Shown piece after piece: positions 24,333-32,315 of a stretch of DNA of 33,769 nt. Location: contig DASWIF010000037.1 in assembly GCA_036397795.1 (NCBI GenBank), positions 1 through 33,769 of the forward strand. Direction: 5' to 3'. The position numbers and the translations under genes are program-made. This stretch comes from Candidatus Saccharimonadales bacterium. Its GTDB lineage: Bacteria > Patescibacteriota > Saccharimonadia > Saccharimonadales > DASWIF01. The notes beneath the pieces are model-generated. The model did no database searches, was not told the DNA's origin, and saw nothing but the letters and a program-made list of their open reading frames with translations. Within the stretch, counting starts at the first letter, position 1, and each line of letters opens with the position of its first letter.

Positions 24333-25208
24333 ATGCATAAGGTGATTTTGTATTACAAATTCGTAGTCTTAAAAGATCCCGCCGCAATAAAGTTGTGGCA
24401 ACAAGAACTGTGTAAGCGACTGGGTCTAAAGGGGCGGATTATCGTCGCCGACCAGGGTATTAACGGTACGTTGGGCGGTAAGGTAGGCAGTCTTAAAACA
24501 TACATTAAGGCCATAAAAGAAACCGGGTTGTTTAAAGGCATCAAATTCAAGTGGAGCGACGGCGGCCCGGATGATTTTCCACGCCTGAGTGTCAAAGTCC
24601 GGCCGGAGCTAGTCACGTTAGCACCGGAAGAAAAATTCGATATTTTTAATAGCAGCCGAGGTCTGCGGCCCAAGGATTGGCACCAATATCTGAAGGACCA
24701 CCCGCAAACGGTTGTGTTAGACGCCCGCAATCATTATGAAAGCCAGATTGGCCACTTCAAGGCAAAAAATTTGATAAAACCGAAGATTAACAATTTCCGG
24801 GAGATAAAGCCGCTGCTAGAGGTGTTGCCTAAGGACCAGCCGGTGCTGACGTATTGTACGGGTGACATCCGCTGCGAGTATCTGTCGGCCTACATGAGCC
24901 ATAAAGGCTTTGAGGAGGTCTATCATCTTGATGGCGGCATTGTAAAATATGGCCAAGAGTTTAAGGATGACGGCCTCTGGGAGGGCAAGTGCTTTGTGTT
25001 TGACAATCGGATGAGCTTGGCATTTTCCGACAAAGTTAAAGACATCGGTGATTGCTGGCACTGCGGATCAGCCACCAGCGCTTATATAAATTGCGCGGAC
25101 AAAACCTGCAACCGATTGATGCTGGTTTGTGATGACTGCCAAGGTCAAACTGCCTGCTCGGCCGGCTGCCAGACGGCTATAAATCAGATTCAGCACCAAA
25201 GTGCTTGA
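24333..25208 (+). CDS. trhO: tRNA uridine-5-oxyacetic acid pathway hydroxylase, rhodanese-like
   Basis: 291 aa, UPF0176/YceA family. TrhO hydroxylates U34 of certain tRNAs using oxygen. It has an N-terminal acylphosphatase-like domain (MHKVILYYKFVVLKDP... IIVADQGINGTLGG), then a rhodanese domain with the active cysteine in YCTGDIRCEYLSAYM (usually YCTGGIRCE; Gly to Asp here), then a Cys-rich C-terminus with CxxC-type pairs around residues 240-278 that may bind zinc. With mnmA it is the second wobble-uridine modification gene in the window. A terminator follows about 140 bp downstream. Confidence 0.9.
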   Translation: MHKVILYYKFVVLKDPAAIKLWQQELCKRLGLKGRIIVADQGINGTLGGKVGSLKTYIKAIKETGLFKGIKFKWSDGGPDDFPRLSVKVRPELVTLAPEEKFDIFNSSRGLRPKDWHQYLKDHPQTVVLDARNHYESQIGHFKAKNLIKPKINNFREIKPLLEVLPKDQPVLTYCTGDIRCEYLSAYMSHKGFEEVYHLDGGIVKYGQEFKDDGLWEGKCFVFDNRMSLAFSDKVKDIGDCWHCGSATSAYINCADKTCNRLMLVCDDCQGQTACSAGCQTAINQIQHQSA

Positions 25209-25347
25209 CAAGTCAGCCTTATGCGTTAATAATTATTTTTAGAAACATTTAAGTTGTGAGCAATGAAACGTCTTCTGTAGTTGGTCGCTTGGAGGACGCG
25301 GAGCGAGTAGCGAAACCGGGCAGCTGGCCTTTTGGTAAAAAACCATG

Positions 25348-25380
25348 AAGTTCAGTCGACCCGACTGAACTTATTTGTTT
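25348..25380 (+). terminator. Rho-independent terminator
   Basis: AAGTTCAGTC (25348-25357) pairs perfectly with GACTGAACTT (25363-25372), loop GACCC, followed by ATTTGTTT. It ends either trhO or a short RNA in 25209-25347, a stretch with no ORF and a small hairpin at about 25327-25347. Confidence 0.75.
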
Positions 25381-25725
25381 AGCAGAATTTTGGGACTCCA
25401 AATGTGGGCATCTCTAGATTAGTATGTTGACCTATTTAGTGTCCACAAAGTGGGTCGCTTTGACACAAAAAAAAGCGACCGGTCTTTAGCTGCGTGGCCC
25501 CGCATATTAGCGAGGCCTGTTGGCATTTACTAGTGGGCGGCGCCATGTAGCTAGGGATGAGAGTTCAAAGGGCCAGCGAAGTGCGACCACGCTTATCACG
25601 GTCCTGAAGTGCTAAGTATAGCTTTAAAGCTCGCACCTTTTAGTTTGCACTGGGCTCTCTACCTAACTACATGAACCAATAAATTAGCTATTTTTGGTTG
25701 ATTTATGAACCTTAACAAATACTAA
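25381..25725. other. intergenic stretch with hairpins, no gene seen
   Basis: 345 nt without a credible ORF. The clearest element is a 9-bp perfect hairpin, GGTCGCTTT (25453-25461) with AAAGCGACC (25472-25480). Weaker pairs are AACCAATAAATTAGC.../TTTTTGGTT around 25674-25699 and GGTT/AACC near 25696-25711. I could not find a convincing promoter on either strand. It may hold a small structured RNA or the remains of an earlier array unit. Confidence 0.4.
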
Positions 25726-25757
25726 ATTCTGATTACGAGTTCGGATGTAATGTGACC
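25726..25757 (+). repeat. unit 1 left inverted-repeat arm
   Basis: Begins ATTCTGATTACGAGTTCG. It pairs with 26718-26684 over about 31 positions, with two U-G wobbles on the plus strand, one A-C mismatch and a 3-nt bulge. It ends 18 nt before the start codon of unit 1. Confidence 0.8.
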
Positions 25758-25775
25758 GAACAAGTGAGGTGATTC

Positions 25776-26624
25776 ATGAGTATACTATCCGAATTGCCTC
25801 GCATATTGAGGCGCAATTTCAGCAAGGCGGTAGTCGTTATGGCGGTTGTCATAGCGCTGCTCCTTGTGATCTCCCGCCTGAACCCATTCGGCTTCGTAGC
25901 CGGCATCCCAGGTGCGTTCGCTGATACGATGGACGGGATCTTCGGAGAGAGAACGGTTGACGACACCGAGCTGGTGCATCTCAGTGTTGTGGCGCTGGGC
26001 ACCAACCAGGAATTTGGCGAAAGTTGGTTCCTGGCGCATGCAGCCGGCCGGCAAACGTGGTACAAGGGAGGAACTGAGGCCGAGCGGATTTTGCTCGAGC
26101 ACGGTTTCTATCTGGCCACGGCCACTGTCCCGGCCGAGAACGTCACCGTCACGGCTAGTGATGGTGATCTGAGTGTAACGTTGATACCAGCGTTCAAACA
26201 GGCCACCGTGTGGTCTGAACCGCTGAGTCGTAACCCCAAGGCGGCCAACGCGGTCGGGTTCCTCCAGTGGGTAGGCCAGATTGGCGGAGCTGACACCAGT
26301 GACGCAACGGCACGGCGCGAGATGAAGATTGCGGCTGAGAGCCGAGTGTTCGACAACCAAGATTTGATGGTTCTTGCCCAATGTTCAGCGGCTTGGACAA
26401 TCGACAGCTTACTGTCAGAGGTATTGGCACAGGCTGAGATCGAAGCGCAAGTCACGTATACCGGCGTGTACTTTGACCGATGCAATGACTTGCTTGCGCA
26501 GGACAACCCGGACGGTTACGACCGTGATGGTGACGGCATCGTCGATGTCTCCGTACCAGCCGGCGGACACCGTGCTCCAGACATCGACCTCGGGGTCGTT
26601 TACGACGGAAGAGAGGATTTGTAG
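25776..26624 (+). CDS. unit 1: single-pass membrane protein with Ca-binding-like motif
   Basis: 282 aa. A short basic cytoplasmic tail and a transmembrane helix at about 17-33 precede an extracytoplasmic domain of about 245 aa. Residues 249-257 (DRDGDGIVD) form a Dx[DN]xDG-type calcium-binding loop. The middle (VTVTASDGDLSVTLIPAF, then a helical RREMKIAAESRV... LLSEVLAQAEIE) vaguely recalls DUF4230 proteins, which is unproven. A strong ribosome binding site (GAGGTG) precedes ATG 25776, unlike most core genes. The gene is enclosed by its own inverted repeat and ends in a GC hairpin. GC-rich codon choice suggests a different history from neighbouring housekeeping genes. Confidence 0.8.
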   Translation: MSILSELPRILRRNFSKAVVVMAVVIALLLVISRLNPFGFVAGIPGAFADTMDGIFGERTVDDTELVHLSVVALGTNQEFGESWFLAHAAGRQTWYKGGTEAERILLEHGFYLATATVPAENVTVTASDGDLSVTLIPAFKQATVWSEPLSRNPKAANAVGFLQWVGQIGGADTSDATARREMKIAAESRVFDNQDLMVLAQCSAAWTIDSLLSEVLAQAEIEAQVTYTGVYFDRCNDLLAQDNPDGYDRDGDGIVDVSVPAGGHRAPDIDLGVVYDGREDL

Positions 26625-26632
26625 AGAGTGGT

Positions 26633-26672
26633 GTGTAAGCCGCGTTTGCTAATCAGCCGACGCGGCTTACAC
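26633..26672 (+). other. unit 1 terminal stem-loop
   Basis: GTGTAAGCCGCGT (26633-26645) and ACGCGGCTTACAC (26660-26672) form a perfect 13-bp stem, 8 nt after the stop and 11 nt before the right arm. No U-tract follows, so it is a poor intrinsic terminator. Confidence 0.75.
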
Positions 26673-26683
26673 TACCTAAAAAA

Positions 26684-26718
26684 GGCCACATTGCATCCCT
26701 CGAACTCGTAGTCAGAAT
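26684..26718 (+). repeat. unit 1 right inverted-repeat arm
   Basis: Complement of 25726-25757, ending CTCGTAGTCAGAAT. The left arm of unit 2 begins after a single nucleotide. Confidence 0.8.
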
Positions 26719-26719
26719 T

Positions 26720-26748
26720 ATTTGATTGCATGATTTAGCGGTGGTTTG
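26720..26748 (+). repeat. unit 2 left inverted-repeat arm
   Basis: Begins ATTTGATTGCATGATTTA and pairs with 27914-27886 along 29 positions without gaps: 25 Watson-Crick pairs, three wobbles that are G-U or U-G on the plus strand, and one C-A mismatch. Confidence 0.85.
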
Positions 26749-26784
26749 TCTTGCCCTAATTAACCCAAGAAAGGGGATAGCAAG

Positions 26785-27858
26785 ATGACACAAACTACTG
26801 ACAGAACGGTTTTCATACCGTCTTCGCTGCCTGAAACTCAAACCGCAGCGGCGGACGACCCAATTTGGGTCGAACAACCTACCTCGCCGGAAAACGACAA
26901 ACGATTTCGACAGCTTAAAAGAGTTGTAGGCGCCACGGCGCTGACCGCGGTAGTAGCGGTTGGTATCTGGGCCGCCGATAGAGGAGCTGATCCGTCTCCG
27001 GATCAGCCAGTGGTTCGGTCTCTCAACCCGGACACGGTTCCGGGACAGGCGCCCGGCTACGTTGAAGAGTTATCGCCTATGCTGGAGCAGCTAAGGCGAC
27101 AAACCGGCACCATTTCCAAACTCCAAACTGATAATAAAACATTAGAAGAAGCTAATACTCAGCTGAATAATCAACTACTTGGCAAAGACCAAACCATCGA
27201 TTTCATGCAGCTGGACCTCACGGAGGCGCAGGCTCAATTGGCGGCCCATAAAACCCTGCTTAGCCAATCTCAACTCACGTTGACGGAACTTCAACAGACT
27301 CTGCCAAAAATGATTGAAGCCAGTTTTCGGCTAGGCCGGGTCGAGGTGCAGAGGAATGAATCAATCGAGGTAACCTGGTCGATATACGGCTGGTTGCCGG
27401 GGGGCAGCGACGATGAAACCCTCTACTTTATCGGCGACGGCGAAAGGCTATACCAAACGTCCTCCAGAATGGAAGTCGGTTGGGGAGATTCCGGCGGTCG
27501 AGTCGATACCTTAGAGCTGACTTTTGACCTGCCGAGCTTAGTACACGCCGGTTTCGAGGTTTCTACTGTCGGCACCGACGCTAAGCCGGGCGTACTAGCG
27601 CAGGCTGGCCAACTCGGCCCTTTGGGTGAGACCATCATCGACCCGATGGTAGAGGAGGCTTATCGACGAAACCACGCCGCTGCCTGCTCGGATGTTAAAG
27701 CCGCTCGTCAAGTGGCCGAGGAAATGGAGCTTAAGGCGGCTGACTTTAGTGCTTACTTTAAGACTGAAATTAGGTGGCGCGATAGCGACGGCCAGCTACA
27801 TGACTCGGTTCCGCGAGATGACATTTTGCTAAAAAGCATCTGTCCAGCGTCGAATTAG
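26785..27858 (+). CDS. unit 2: membrane-anchored coiled-coil protein
   Basis: 357 aa. A 45-residue cytoplasmic N-terminus precedes a transmembrane helix at about 46-64, then an extracytoplasmic coiled coil at about 98-175 (repeating EQL, KLQ, LEEANTQLNNQL heptads), then a domain with beta strands (ESIEVTWSIYGWLPGG, VDTLELTFDLPSL) and a helical end with two cysteines. The ribosome binding site is AAAGGGG about 8-14 nt upstream. Topology matches its neighbours in units 1 and 3: short inside, one helix, large outside part. No known family recognised. The coiled coil suggests oligomerisation or a spacer through the envelope. Confidence 0.8.
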   Translation: MTQTTDRTVFIPSSLPETQTAAADDPIWVEQPTSPENDKRFRQLKRVVGATALTAVVAVGIWAADRGADPSPDQPVVRSLNPDTVPGQAPGYVEELSPMLEQLRRQTGTISKLQTDNKTLEEANTQLNNQLLGKDQTIDFMQLDLTEAQAQLAAHKTLLSQSQLTLTELQQTLPKMIEASFRLGRVEVQRNESIEVTWSIYGWLPGGSDDETLYFIGDGERLYQTSSRMEVGWGDSGGRVDTLELTFDLPSLVHAGFEVSTVGTDAKPGVLAQAGQLGPLGETIIDPMVEEAYRRNHAAACSDVKAARQVAEEMELKAADFSAYFKTEIRWRDSDGQLHDSVPRDDILLKSICPASN

Positions 27859-27863
27859 AAAAT

Positions 27864-27886
27864 GGCGCGGCCAAAACAGCCGCGCC
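27864..27886 (+). other. unit 2 terminal stem-loop
   Basis: GGCGCGGC (27864-27871) and GCCGCGCC (27879-27886) form an 8-bp perfect stem, 5 nt after the stop. It touches the right arm and no U-tract follows. Confidence 0.75.
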
Positions 27887-27914
27887 AAACCACCATTAAG
27901 TCATGCGATCAAAT
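27886..27914 (+). repeat. unit 2 right inverted-repeat arm
   Basis: Complement of 26720-26748, ending TCATGCGATCAAAT. Seven nt separate it from the left arm of unit 3. Confidence 0.85.
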
Positions 27915-27921
27915 TAGTTAG

Positions 27922-27956
27922 AACTGATTACATGCTGGTAGCAGACAAGCTACTAG
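27922..27956 (+). repeat. unit 3 left inverted-repeat arm
   Basis: Begins AACTGATTACATGCTGGT and pairs with 29258-29221: 18 positions including one U-G wobble on the plus strand, a 4-nt bulge, then about 12 more Watson-Crick pairs. Confidence 0.85.
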
Positions 27957-27975
27957 TCTAGTAAGAAGGTGCGAG

Positions 27976-29160
27976 ATGACGAAATACCAGCTGGGCGACC
28001 AGGTTGTCCGTCGGCGCTTCACACTTGTGAAAGCGCCAAGACTATTCATCGCCTGGTGGCTGGCGGCCAAGACTGCCAATCGATGGATATCAGCTACGGC
28101 AGTGTTTTTGGGCGTGGCTCTAGTTGCCGCCGTGGTCTTGATCGTCTTCAGCATGGGAGGCGAACAAGCGCGGTCACCAACTGATCCGATTGTCGCTATT
28201 GGCGGCATGACGTCAACCACCGACGGGGCTATCAGGCCGCCGGCTACGACCAATACCACCGCGACCACCGTCCCGGTGATCGACGTGACCGACCCGACGT
28301 CAACGACCATCGCCAGTGAAGATTCGTCGTTGCCGCCAGACATTGGCAGTCCCTTGCCGCCGCTCAAGCCGGTGTTAAAGGACTTCGTCAACCCCAAAGT
28401 CAACCTGGCTTTGGGGCCGGTACTGGGCGATATCGTAACTACGACGTCGTTCATGTCTGCCGACGGGCCCAACGCGCCGCCGGAGATGACGGTCAAGGTC
28501 AAAGCCCCCATCTCAGTGCCGCTCAAGCTGTATACCGACAGCGATGGGCGGACGGCGCTCGAGATCAAGAGCGACGACAGGGGGCGTTACGCCGTCTACT
28601 TGCCCTGGGAAGGGGTCGTTATCGACGGCGACCGCATCCGTAGCGACGATGGGCGTCGTTTCGGGAATATCCCAGACACGTTCCTGACGGATCCGGAGGT
28701 TTTTCCGGTGCAAGTCAAGCGGTTTGACCGCCGCTACAAGGCGGTGTATGACCGCAACGTCTATGGCACGTTCTACACTCGTGGGACGCTGCCAAACGAC
28801 CCGCAAGCCTTGGTCGTGCTGAACGAAGGCCTAGCCAAGGTGATGAGTCGGGCGTTTTTCGAGCACGAGGCCTGTCTCGACGCGCTCTACCGCGAGCTGT
28901 GGAAGGCTCTTCGTCCGGCGATTTTGGAATTTCTCGAACACGAAGGGATCTTTCCGCTCGGCTTGACGCTCGTCAGGCAGAGTGAGGTGGCTCAGGCCAT
29001 CTCAGACTCGGCGGACGGGTACGCCCGAGAAATTGCCGGACAGGGGCTCAAGATCGGACCGCCGATCAAGAACGGCCCTATCAACCTTACTCTCAAGCGC
29101 ATAAAGCTTGGAAACAAGCTCTGCGCTGGCAGCGACCTACTCGAGGTGAGCGAGGGATAA
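27976..29160 (+). CDS. unit 3: single-pass membrane protein, possibly DUF4230-like
   Basis: 394 aa. The cytoplasmic N-terminus is basic, with a transmembrane helix at about 38-60, a Thr/Pro-rich low-complexity linker at about 65-120, then a globular extracytoplasmic domain. Strand-like PISVPLKLYTDSDGRTALEIK, then RYAVYLPWEGVVIDGDRI, then a helical block (LVVLNEGLAKVMSRAFF... LYRELWKALRPAILEFLEHEG) recall DUF4230 by order of elements; not verified. AAGGTG lies before ATG 27976. High-GC codon choice (many CTC, GTC, GAC) differs from the AT-richer neighbours, suggesting transfer. It is enclosed by its own inverted repeat. Confidence 0.8.
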   Translation: MTKYQLGDQVVRRRFTLVKAPRLFIAWWLAAKTANRWISATAVFLGVALVAAVVLIVFSMGGEQARSPTDPIVAIGGMTSTTDGAIRPPATTNTTATTVPVIDVTDPTSTTIASEDSSLPPDIGSPLPPLKPVLKDFVNPKVNLALGPVLGDIVTTTSFMSADGPNAPPEMTVKVKAPISVPLKLYTDSDGRTALEIKSDDRGRYAVYLPWEGVVIDGDRIRSDDGRRFGNIPDTFLTDPEVFPVQVKRFDRRYKAVYDRNVYGTFYTRGTLPNDPQALVVLNEGLAKVMSRAFFEHEACLDALYRELWKALRPAILEFLEHEGIFPLGLTLVRQSEVAQAISDSADGYAREIAGQGLKIGPPIKNGPINLTLKRIKLGNKLCAGSDLLEVSEG

Positions 29161-29171
29161 GGAGTCTCGGT

Positions 29172-29208
29172 GTCGGAGGGCGGCCCATATATAAGGCCGC
29201 TCTCCGAC
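29172..29208 (+). other. unit 3 terminal stem-loop
   Basis: GTCGGAG (29172-29178) with CTCCGAC (29202-29208), enclosing CGGCC (29181-29185) with GGCCG (29195-29199). It starts 11 nt after the stop and ends 12 nt before the right arm. No U-tract. Confidence 0.75.
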
Positions 29209-29220
29209 ATGAGCCACCAT

Positions 29221-29258
29221 CTAAAGCTTGTCTGCCTGTTACCAGCGTGTAATCAGTT
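29221..29258 (+). repeat. unit 3 right inverted-repeat arm
   Basis: Complement of 27922-27956, ending GCGTGTAATCAGTT. Its last seven bases are shared with the left arm of unit 4. Confidence 0.85.
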
Positions 29259-29285
29259 GTTGTGTTGTCAGAGGAGAACAAACGG
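29252..29285 (+). repeat. unit 4 left inverted-repeat arm
   Basis: Begins ATCAGTTGTTGTGTTGTC. It pairs with 30071-30032: 21 perfect pairs, a bulge on the right side, then 10 perfect pairs (GGAGAACAAA with TTTGTTCTCC) and a CGG/CCG end. This is the most perfect of the four repeats. Confidence 0.9.
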
Positions 29286-29307
29286 TTTTCCCGGCACTGG
29301 AGGAGGT

Positions 29308-29463
29308 ATGAGTAAACTATCACGTCTCCTCTGCCTCATGCTGGTGGGGATGGTACGCGATTTGCTGATTGGCCTATTCATTACGGCGAGCATCGTCATG
29401 GTGGCGGCGCTGGTAGTAGTGAGTGGAGTCGGCCAACGGATACTGGAACAAGTCATTCCGTGA
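29308..29463 (+). CDS. unit 4, first gene: 51-aa membrane microprotein
   Basis: MSKLSRLLCLMLVGMVRDLL followed by a long hydrophobic helix (about 21-41) and a short polar end. GGAGGAGGT directly precedes ATG 29308, closer than usual but a strong match to the anti-Shine-Dalgarno. The next gene starts 17 nt after the stop, so the two are co-transcribed inside one inverted repeat. Unrecognised. Confidence 0.65.
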   Translation: MSKLSRLLCLMLVGMVRDLLIGLFITASIVMVAALVVVSGVGQRILEQVIP

Positions 29464-29479
29464 GAAGAGAGGATATGTA

Positions 29480-29962
29480 ATGTTGCCCGACAAGAGAAGA
29501 GAAGCCCCGGACCTTACGTTGTTGCGAGCGAACCCCGAGAAGTCTCGTCGCTTTATGAAGATCTTCTGGGCCACCATGTTCATCATGTTGTTCCTTCTGG
29601 TGGCTGTGGTGTTCATGAAGAGCCAATATGACTCGGGAGCCAACGGCACCTTGGGCGAGAGAGAAGGTATGTGGGCTGTATTCAAGACAGCCTTCCTTCT
29701 CGGCGGAGCGTTCACGGTTTACATGCTGACGAGATGGGTGGCTCCCGGGACGCTCAACTACCCATGGACAGTGGCTGTCGGGATGATTGCCGCATGGCTA
29801 TCGCGTGGATTTGTCGAAGACGCGTCCGGACTCCAAGGTGGCACTCTTGGTGTGGGGATTGGAATCAGAGTCCTCGTTGCTGGTGGTATTCTCGTGGCCG
29901 TTGTGGTGCTGACGCTTCACTCGGTCTGGCATCGAAGCAGGAGGGAAGTCATAGGCGACTAG
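29480..29962 (+). CDS. unit 4, second gene: four-helix membrane protein
   Basis: 160 aa with a 25-residue charged N-terminus and four hydrophobic segments at about 27-46, 68-85, 93-110 and 124-147, ending in a basic tail (HRSRREVIGD). AGAGG precedes ATG 29480. Together with the 51-aa protein it forms the only two-gene unit of the array. No family recognised. It contains few charged residues inside the helices, so a structural or complex-forming role is as likely as transport. Confidence 0.75.
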   Translation: MLPDKRREAPDLTLLRANPEKSRRFMKIFWATMFIMLFLLVAVVFMKSQYDSGANGTLGEREGMWAVFKTAFLLGGAFTVYMLTRWVAPGTLNYPWTVAVGMIAAWLSRGFVEDASGLQGGTLGVGIGIRVLVAGGILVAVVVLTLHSVWHRSRREVIGD

Positions 29963-29968
29963 TTGATT

Positions 29969-30027
29969 GCCGGATGGCGAGAATGAACGTGGGGGCTTAA
30001 CCTTCGCGAACAATCTCGTCATCCGGC
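29969..30027 (+). other. unit 4 terminal stem-loop
   Basis: GCCGGATG (29969-29976) with CATCCGGC (30020-30027), and inside it CGAGA (29978-29982) with TCTCG (30014-30018). It starts 6 nt after the stop and ends 4 nt before the right arm. No U-tract. Confidence 0.75.
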
Positions 30028-30031
30028 CGCG

Positions 30032-30071
30032 CCGCTTTGTTCTCCTACAATCTGACAACACAACAACTGAT
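30032..30071 (+). repeat. unit 4 right inverted-repeat arm
   Basis: Complement of 29252-29285, ending ACACAACAACTGAT. No further left arm with a partner is visible after it. Confidence 0.9.
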
Positions 30072-30101: not shown

Positions 30102-32315
30102 ATGGGGAGCGAAGGTCGGAAGCCAGAAGATATAATTAAAAATGTTCTCGAGGCAGATGCTAGACGGCGTGGAAACTTTGAAAGGGCCTTAGGCGAGGGA
30201 TTAGATCCTCACACTGATGCCTTAGCGGGTAGACTCGCCAATGCCCTGGATAGGCACGGTCTAAGCATCGTTGAGCAAAATCCTCCCGGCTTACCGGAAG
30301 CTCCTCCTATAAGAGGGATTAGAGGTTTATTTTTGGAATATGTTCCAACCGACGATGAGCCGGAGGCAGGTAATGGCCACAGAAAACCTCAAACCAAAGC
30401 TGCCATCGGCGGTATTGCCGCTGCTACCACAGTTATTATGCCACCAGGGGCGTCAGTTGAACCACCTGCAGTTGAAATAGTAGATTCGACACAGGCTGCC
30501 GTGCCAATAGCCAACACAGTACCAGCGCAGCTTCATGACTCGTCGCTGAATGTATTAATTTCCGGACCAGAGCAGACTGCTCAAGCCCCGGTGTTTACGA
30601 TTAACGTTGACCAGAAACTTCCGACGCACATAAAACCACCTAAGCAGCTGCTGCGGCGCAATACCGTTATCCCCCCAGGGGAACCGCCACCGATTGATAC
30701 CGGCAATCCCAAATTACCCAAAACAATATCAACAGAGAGAATTTTTGATCCCGAGGATGACATTACTGGTGGTGAAAAGCCAAAGTACGCGGATGGCGGG
30801 TACTTTACCGTGCCAAAGGATGGAATTACCGGTGAGGAGTTAACAAAATTGGCACAGAGGTATATCCCAGACACTAAAGCCAAGGTCATACTTGAACATC
30901 CAGCCAACGATCCTATCCAAAAACGCGCGGATTCACGAGGGCGTCTGCTCGGTCTAAACGGAACAATGCCAGATGATAAGGTGTTGATACCCGGCCTGCG
31001 TGATTATCGGGTAAAGCCTGGTGATACTTTGGGTGAAATTTCGCGCCGGTTAAAAATTACGACGGGTGTATTACTGGAACTGAACCCCTGGCTAGTTAAC
31101 CCTGATAAGTTAGAGATCGACGATACTATTCTTGCGCCGCATGATGACAAAAAGTGGGTCGAACCTAAGTCAGAAAAGCCAAGCCCCAAAGAGCCAAAAG
31201 AAAAAGGCGATGAAGCTGAAAAAAGGGACAAGTATAAAGAACTATTTAATAAAAAGGGATATGAAATAAAGCAAGAATTACAAAGTCAAGCACTGAATGG
31301 GGAAAGTGGGAGGTTAAGATCGGATCAACTTGACATACTTGGTTCAGCCTGGGGAGCAGAACAGCTATTTCCTGACGCAGCAGAGGCATTTCGATTACTT
31401 AACACGGCGTTTAAAGACAAGTTTGGTCATAATCTGGAACTTGTTGATACTTACCGCAGCTATGATCAACAGGTCGCGACAAAAAAATGGTGGGAGGATC
31501 AAGGCAAGGGATATATGGCGGCCACACCAGGGCGGTCTAATCATGGCTGGGGGTTGGCCATCGATTTCGGCGATCAGGATTCAAGTACCAGTAGCGTTGC
31601 CTTAAAGTTTACGGATGAGGAGTATGGATGGTTGATAGAGCGCGCGCATGATTATGGTTGGGTTAATCCAGATTGGGCTCACGACGGCGTCGGGAGTGAA
31701 GAAGCCTGGCACTGGGAATATATTGGCCGCCCGCTAAGCGATCTACTCAATCCTCAAAAGGATGATGATAAAAAAGAAGACGGCTCAAAGGAAAACACAG
31801 GTAAAGGAGACAAAAAGAAAGATAACTCAGGTAAAGAAAAGAAAGAACTAGGTTACGAAAGAAAAGACTACTATGAGCCGGGGAGTGATGATTTGACAGA
31901 TCTTTTTAGGTCGGCTGCAAAAGTTGCAAATGTTCCAGCCAGCTGGGCAGAATCAGAGGCCCTACATAAAATCGTAAAAGCAGAATCGGGGGGATGGGTG
32001 GGTATACCGAACTATACTTACGGTGATAAAAAATCTGACCGGTCTCGCTGGAAAGAAGTGCACAACGAGCTTAAACGAGGCGAAATAACCGCTCGATCTT
32101 CAGCATCAGGGTTAGGACAGCTAATTTTAGTTAATGTAAAATCTTACTACCCCAGCGGGGTGGACGGGCTAGGCAATGAGCTAGAAGAGGCCGTTGGTAT
32201 GATGCTTTACGTAGAAGCAAGATACGAAACTCCTGAGATAGCCTGGGGAAATCATGGTCAAAATCCAAACCGCCATGTAGGCGTCCCAGTTATTTATACC
32301 GATGAAGGCTATTAA
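30102..32315 (+). CDS. LysM / D,D-carboxypeptidase (VanY-type) / lytic transglycosylase-like fusion
   Basis: 737 aa from ATG 30102, with GGAG 9 nt upstream; a longer frame from 29967 would cross the unit 4 repeat arm and is rejected. The N-terminus (about 1-100) is polar; a weak hydrophobic Ala-rich segment (AAIGGIAAATTVI) may be the membrane anchor. After a Pro-rich region there is a LysM domain at about 300-343 (DYRVKPGDTLGEISRRL), a Lys/Glu-rich linker, then a peptidase M15B domain at about 449-540 with SNHGWGLAIDFGD and EAWHWEY metal/catalytic residues, another Lys-rich linker, and an SLT-like domain at about 596-730 with IVKAESGGW and SASGLGQL. It should bind glycan, trim D-Ala or cut peptide, and cleave glycan strands. 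Confidence 0.85.
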   Translation: MGSEGRKPEDIIKNVLEADARRRGNFERALGEGLDPHTDALAGRLANALDRHGLSIVEQNPPGLPEAPPIRGIRGLFLEYVPTDDEPEAGNGHRKPQTKAAIGGIAAATTVIMPPGASVEPPAVEIVDSTQAAVPIANTVPAQLHDSSLNVLISGPEQTAQAPVFTINVDQKLPTHIKPPKQLLRRNTVIPPGEPPPIDTGNPKLPKTISTERIFDPEDDITGGEKPKYADGGYFTVPKDGITGEELTKLAQRYIPDTKAKVILEHPANDPIQKRADSRGRLLGLNGTMPDDKVLIPGLRDYRVKPGDTLGEISRRLKITTGVLLELNPWLVNPDKLEIDDTILAPHDDKKWVEPKSEKPSPKEPKEKGDEAEKRDKYKELFNKKGYEIKQELQSQALNGESGRLRSDQLDILGSAWGAEQLFPDAAEAFRLLNTAFKDKFGHNLELVDTYRSYDQQVATKKWWEDQGKGYMAATPGRSNHGWGLAIDFGDQDSSTSSVALKFTDEEYGWLIERAHDYGWVNPDWAHDGVGSEEAWHWEYIGRPLSDLLNPQKDDDKKEDGSKENTGKGDKKKDNSGKEKKELGYERKDYYEPGSDDLTDLFRSAAKVANVPASWAESEALHKIVKAESGGWVGIPNYTYGDKKSDRSRWKEVHNELKRGEITARSSASGLGQLILVNVKSYYPSGVDGLGNELEEAVGMMLYVEARYETPEIAWGNHGQNPNRHVGVPVIYTDEGY

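Follow-up and report, generated by a model that had tools for sequence, protein, structure and literature searches.

The question raised by this locus is why every gene of a tandem array should lie between its own pair of long complementary arms. The window analysed here, 33,769 nucleotides (nt) in length, is the entire contig C37 (DASWIF010000037.1) of a Candidatus Saccharimonadales genome of 780 kb in 80 contigs, and the uvrC gene on it finds its best matches in Saccharibacteria at 55–60% identity. Four units of the same sense are flanked by a UPF0176/TrhO-type gene (24333-25208) on one side and, on the other, by a LysM/VanY hydrolase gene that is followed by uvrC. Each is built on one plan: between a left and a right arm lie, in this order, a ribosome binding site (RBS), one or two membrane-protein open reading frames (ORFs) and a GC stem-loop. 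Comparison of such units across the order indicates that the pairing of the arms acts in the transcript, with covariation and conservation. It seems rather likely that a 5′–3′ stem closes each messenger RNA (mRNA) end to end as a module for processing, protection or timing.

Complementary arms in the window

An earlier note, made from the sequence of this DNA alone, had reported four arm pairs together with an RBS, membrane-protein ORFs and a GC stem-loop 5′ of each right arm, and all of these were recovered at the same places (Table 1). The arms pair across 29–36 nt with few mismatches. They constitute the top four inverted repeats of the 33.8 kb window at spacings of 100–4000 nt and rank within the first eight over 523 kb of the same genome, which was read in stretches totalling ~0.7 Mb, all contigs but C65–C80 and a few contig tails being covered. 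Local alignment of consecutive spacers yielded complementarity scores of 46, 39, 47, and 56, as opposed to 13–18 for non-consecutive spacers. The observed score was never reached in 2000 dinucleotide-preserving shuffles per spacer pair, the shuffle maxima being 29, 32, 32, and 39. Units 1–3 occupied ranks 1–3 among 567 ORFs scored genome-wide with 150-nt flanks; unit 4, harboring two ORFs, was scored in the spacer test only. The earlier description of the arms as unrelated between units holds locally, but units 1–3 share an outer motif near TGATTRCATG and the arms form conserved families across genomes. The right arm of unit 3 and the left arm of unit 4 overlap by 7 nt (29252-29258), so that the stems of these two units compete. 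No homologue of the unit 3 protein was found in 60 other genomes of the order, in plasmids or in phages, and none of protein P0014 in phages, plasmids or viral contigs.

Recurrence across the order

The search for this plan in Saccharibacteria that the earlier note had proposed was successful at several places. Contig C4 of the same genome carries a second array behind a riboswitch for cyclic di-guanosine monophosphate (c-di-GMP), which passes as the c-di-GMP-II-GAG variant RF03169. One unit of this array, with arms GACAAGCCAGATGGA/TCCATCTGGCTTGTC, encloses a secreted protein and a class-F-like sortase, another has 28-nt arms, and a pair of tiny membrane ORFs (unit B) is armless. The genome G040, from another family, has riboswitches at two loci. 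At the first, two units precede a LysM gene; at the second, one unit encloses an LPXTG protein (arms AAGTCAGATAGATAG/CTATCTATCTGACTT), and these arms differ from those of unit A on C4 by two compensatory pairs. Directly upstream of the c-di-GMP-II riboswitch of the G040 array lies a transfer-messenger RNA gene (L093 13783-14171, minus strand). When 393 genomes were searched with the pattern AAGYCAGATRGATA, paired arms were found only in G040, and the remaining matches look like chance. A scan by uvrC led to a unit in UBA6572, and its protein in turn to G406 and G343, whose arms are nearly identical. With a conserved surface-protein gene located 3′ of the units as bait, 78 of the 393 genomes matched, and in 26 of the 40 loci fetched an arm pair sits directly upstream of the bait gene around a mostly GC-rich ORF. 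Units beyond those 26 loci occur in G126, G406, G343, and G088. An apparent second array on L013 was rejected as a chance repeat within other genes. At one alpha locus (see below), the unit is directly preceded by another membrane-protein gene rich in GC (L227 7619-8053), which has a promoter, a leader and a terminator of its own.

Counts of orientation, 3′ hairpin and codon usage cover 39 units, of which 38 possess the 3′ hairpin. Their arms fall into families, namely a window type with TGATTRCATG outermost and those termed alpha (GCAAACTAGATAGTCAT...), beta (TGTGTCAAATCATGCTAT...) and delta (CAAGTCAGATCATTACAGTGCATGTC...). These families are conserved across genera while the enclosed proteins are only ~25–60% identical, which is the opposite of the outcome named in the earlier note as a refutation, namely that homologous loci keep the genes and lose the complementarity.

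Pairing at the level of the transcript

In the alpha family, represented by 21 loci, 98% of the alignment cells of the 17-bp outer helix are paired, and pairing falls to 30–44% if the partner is shifted. Three pairs have changed on both sides (C-G/U-A, A-U/G-C). Since the enclosed alpha proteins diverge to ~25% identity, the arms are more tightly conserved than the coding sequence. Positions departing from Watson–Crick pairing, read on the coding strand, are G-U rather than A-C at a ratio of 17:1 in alpha, 21:6 elsewhere (p=0.006) and 38:7 combined, even though the arms had been detected by DNA scoring with an equal penalty for both. Signals acting at the DNA level would lack such a direction, and the bias therefore argues for pairing in RNA. 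Together with the covariation and the single orientation of the units, it supports, at the level of structure, the suggestion in the earlier note that these are mRNAs closed end to end.

A second fold is predicted to compete for the left arm. Past the outer helix, the stretch GGGTCTTTAA of the alpha left arm folds locally with a downstream TTAA-CCC in nearly all alpha leaders, and counterparts exist in the window in units 1 (GTTCGG/CCGAAC) and 3 (CTGGTAGC/GCTACTAG). Where several members have GGGAC in this stretch through a change of T to A, the right arm has changed to match (GTTC), and so, at least in L261, has the local partner. Single-sequence folds of alpha units gave predicted energies of -16 to -30 kcal/mol for the local fold compared to -31 to -43 for the long-range duplex, which was the stronger of the two throughout the alpha units so analysed. 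From the alignment A1 of 5′ regions, RNAalifold returned only 3 pairs, alignment gaps breaking the hairpin.

A proposed stem joining both ends of one message

The operon would be transcribed from upstream, in the window from behind a class-II c-di-GMP riboswitch and terminator. A stem of 17–30 bp would join the 5′ untranslated region (UTR) to the 3′ end of a single gene, or of a pair of genes, for surface or membrane proteins, such that each gene forms the loop of its own stem next to its own 3′ GC hairpin. During transcription, the inner left arm may fold first as a local 5′ hairpin, which the more stable end-to-end stem can displace once the right arm emerges. The stem would then mark the ends of the message, probably for RNase III, so that single-gene mRNAs are freed from a long transcript as in ribosomal RNA (rRNA) precursors, and would keep the freed mRNAs closed, stable and perhaps translationally timed. 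The roles in cleavage, stability and timing are inferred. The 16S rRNA of the same genome is enclosed by a 28-nt stem of this kind with arms 1.8 kb apart, an RNase III gene is present, and the paired arms, like the stems recognized by this enzyme, are double-stranded over ~20 bp or more and enclose an RNA. The comparison with pre-rRNA stems drawn in the earlier note is thus borne out in geometry.

Several known systems resemble the units in part. In the toxin mRNAs aapA3 and hok, a short-lived hairpin near the 5′ end gives way to pairing between the two ends of the mRNA (PMC6733600). A similar order of events may apply here: end pairing is supported by sequence comparison, and a competing local 5′ hairpin is predicted by folding. 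Whereas aapA3 and hok encode small toxins, the main ORFs of the units mostly encode secreted or membrane proteins of 130–620 amino acids (aa). The units also differ in that the RBS lies outside the stem, that they can occur in tandem and that their arms are conserved across a bacterial order, and no antitoxin RNA was seen. In icaR of Staphylococcus aureus, the two UTRs of the mRNA pair with each other, the 3′ UTR covering the RBS, and an RNase III substrate results (PMC3868564). Pairing between the UTRs of one mRNA is common to both cases, but in icaR it involves a 7-nt motif on the Shine–Dalgarno region, whereas the 17–30 bp found here recur gene after gene outside the RBS, with arms that stop 20–36 nt short of the start codon in the window and at larger distances in alpha. 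Pre-16S and pre-23S rRNAs likewise have long complementary arms around each gene of a multigene transcript; the RNAs enclosed here, in contrast, are mRNAs with an RBS, 3′ GC hairpins and competing 5′ hairpins. Since the units do not fit the other defining features of the toxin and icaR systems, they are not classed with either, and they belong to the known kind of end-paired mRNAs as a separate form. The arrangement was not found in the literature on inverted repeats and riboswitches of Saccharibacteria or on long-range pairing in bacterial mRNA, a search outside of which most subscription journals lay.

A number of observations weigh against end-closure as a full account. The evidence consists of sequence comparison and predicted folds, and loci related by phylogeny contribute non-independent events to the G-U and covariation counts. 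Arms are missing altogether from unit B on C4. In every unit examined closely the RBS is located outside the stem, which gives no sign of a direct block of translation of the icaR type, and the distance from arm to start codon, 20–36 nt in the window, is mostly 120–300 nt in alpha, which means that one mechanism may not fit all units. The raised third-position GC content of the enclosed ORFs, described below, is not explained by end-closure. Finally, a large part of the outer helix in alpha shows no variation, columns 6–9, 11–13, and 16 being constant throughout, which suggests sequence-specific binding besides pairing.

Alternative explanations

This invariance, maintained while the enclosed proteins fall to ~25% identity, is what would be expected if a trans-acting RNA-binding protein read the double-stranded arm and localized or silenced the mRNA, for example near a secretion site, the pairing serving only to build its binding site. 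The arms of the window, beta and delta types are quite different in sequence, however, and a single sequence-reading protein would not serve them all, for which reason this explanation is considered unlikely.

The units could also be mobile gene cassettes, as the earlier note had suggested, that is, blocks with structure-recognized ends which a recombinase moves like integron cassettes through their attC hairpins. Like those cassettes, they are promoterless single genes of one sense in tandem with structured repeats, and their content is variable: the unit proteins at the hydrolase locus have no similarity between G000 and G040, three genomes (G053, G064, G080) lack the array and have a riboswitch before a large ORF beside uvrC, and in G343 and G088, members of one genus, the same site linked to infB carries different arms and ORFs. 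Yet attC is one local hairpin at a cassette end, whereas here the complementarity links both ends of one unit and the boundaries of neighboring units overlap. The G-U bias places the pairing in coding-strand RNA, the ORF orientation is the same in 39 of 39 units, the arms stay paired via compensatory change at corresponding positions, and in 21 loci the alpha family has kept its position ahead of one and the same gene family. No integron integrase (TIGR02249) scored over the cut-off in five genomes, weak matches occurring in all 14 control genomes as well. An assignment to integrons was rejected on the integrase result, on geometry and on the spacers, in which no RYYYAAC/GTTRRRY bounds were seen on reading, and cassettes in the wider sense are regarded as quite improbable.

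Long inverted repeats around single genes also recall invertible segments of phase variation, another proposal of the earlier note, or the terminal repeats of small transposons. This is hardly credible for units whose ORFs without exception have the same sense relative to the leader, whose arms contain compensatory changes and right-arm bulges, and within none of which a transposase was seen. Chance or trivial intergenic similarity, the remaining objection foreseen in the earlier note, is refuted by the shuffles, the non-neighboring spacers, the genome-wide ORF test and the conservation across genera.

Codon usage of the enclosed genes

The enclosed ORFs have a GC content at third codon positions of 0.75 compared to 0.48 in flanking genes, a contrast present in 38 of the 39 units and not extending to the next gene of the same operon. 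They avoid TTA (1.3 vs 12.2 per 1000), AAA and ATA and favor TAG and TGA stops. It is conceivable, though very improbable, that the closed mRNAs are made for delivery to a GC-rich actinobacterial host, with GC-rich surface-protein ORFs, whose codon usage would fit such a host, in an AT-rich RNA shell of arms and hairpins, the mRNAs resisting exonucleases and being controlled by c-di-GMP as a signal of the attachment type. Recurrent gene transfer from GC-rich hosts or selection for RNA compactness would also explain the contrast. The steadiness of this codon usage constitutes a separate puzzle that can be tested at the same loci.

Riboswitch and leaders

The class-II c-di-GMP riboswitch and the terminator ahead of the array had both been missed in the earlier note. 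Between 25331 and 25724 the fold z-score is -6.7. A scan with Rfam found no match within the array besides the riboswitch and none for the leader, and the leaders of the window and of G040 (~390 nt) gave no convincing alignment, leaving homology unsupported. In G053, G064, and G080, a riboswitch is followed within 74–91 nt, or after one further gene, by a large ORF that adjoins uvrC and resembles the hydrolase gene of the window in size and place. In the lineage of the window, the array thus fills the riboswitch-to-gene interval. Class-II c-di-GMP riboswitches occur in 32 of 295 genomes of the order, often directly 5′ of genes for large secreted proteins or cell-wall hydrolases. Small non-coding hairpin domains are found in the leaders of both arrays, at 25548-25672 in the window and at ~1185-1355 of L093 (oriented), closed by CATGTAG/CTACATG and CATGCAG/CTGCATG, respectively. 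Structured leaders also precede units without a riboswitch, at L198 9960-9745 (minus strand), L227 8280-8425, L228 2030-2120, and L281 3190-3242. They have GAGGT- and TTAACA-like motifs in common, and in some alpha loci they contain a stretch, GTTTGCG, that could base-pair to the left arm. The three of these leaders scanned (L198, L227, L228) had no Rfam match, and the four possibly represent a new leader or riboswitch class.

An unrelated feature of the same genome is its 23S rRNA gene (C15, L233 10040-15742), which extends over 5.7 kb and is interrupted by two large insertions with long inverted repeats at their borders. A LAGLIDADG-like ORF is present at L233 12907-13434, and the insertions are probably rRNA introns or intervening sequences.

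Table 1. Features of the array and its surroundings (positions in the window unless a locus is named)
Feature	Position	Strand	Remarks
Class-II c-di-GMP riboswitch aptamer (RF01786)	25247-25330	+	Rfam 54.7 bits, gathering score 53.5
Terminator-like hairpin with U-rich tail, riboswitch expression platform	25347-25380	+	read from sequence; layout matched in G040 and contig C4
Structured non-coding leader	25381-25724	+	between terminator and unit 1; contains hairpin closed by CATGTAGCTAGG...CCTAACTACATG
Unit 1 left arm	25725-25757	+	inverted-repeat and spacer tests; inner part also able to form local hairpin GTTCGG/CCGAAC
Unit 1 ORF	25776-26624	+	282 aa, one transmembrane (TM) helix, no Pfam match
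Unit 1 3′ GC stem-loop	26633-26672	+	
Unit 1 right arm	26684-26719	+	includes 3-nt extra stretch
Unit 2 left arm	26720-26748	+	
Unit 2 ORF	26785-27858	+	357 aa, TM helix and coiled coil
Unit 2 3′ GC stem-loop	27864-27886	+	read from sequence; abuts right arm directly
Unit 2 right arm	27886-27914	+	
Unit 3 left arm	27922-27951	+	inner part also pairs locally as hairpin CTGGTAGC/GCTACTAG
Unit 3 ORF	27976-29160	+	394 aa, TM helix, Thr/Pro-rich linker
Unit 3 3′ GC stem-loop	29172-29208	+	read from sequence
Unit 3 right arm	29225-29258	+	includes 4-nt extra stretch
Unit 4 left arm	29252-29282	+	
Unit 4 first ORF	29308-29463	+	51 aa membrane peptide
Unit 4 second ORF	29480-29962	+	160 aa membrane protein
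Unit 4 3′ GC stem-loop	29969-30027	+	
Unit 4 right arm	30036-30071	+	includes 5-nt extra stretch
LysM/VanY cell-wall hydrolase gene	30102-32315	+	downstream of array, outside any arm pair
c-di-GMP-II-GAG variant riboswitch (RF03169)	L005 16699-16779	minus	ahead of second array

Implications

End-to-end pairing of bacterial mRNAs has so far been known from single cases, namely toxin mRNAs and icaR. If the explanation by 5′–3′ stems is true, a conserved and covarying two-part RNA element around surface-protein genes across an order of epibionts would make the closure of messages a general regulatory layer. The units, which are sometimes arranged in tandem and under c-di-GMP control, would then also offer a handle on the control of the host-facing surface in bacteria that are poorly accessible.

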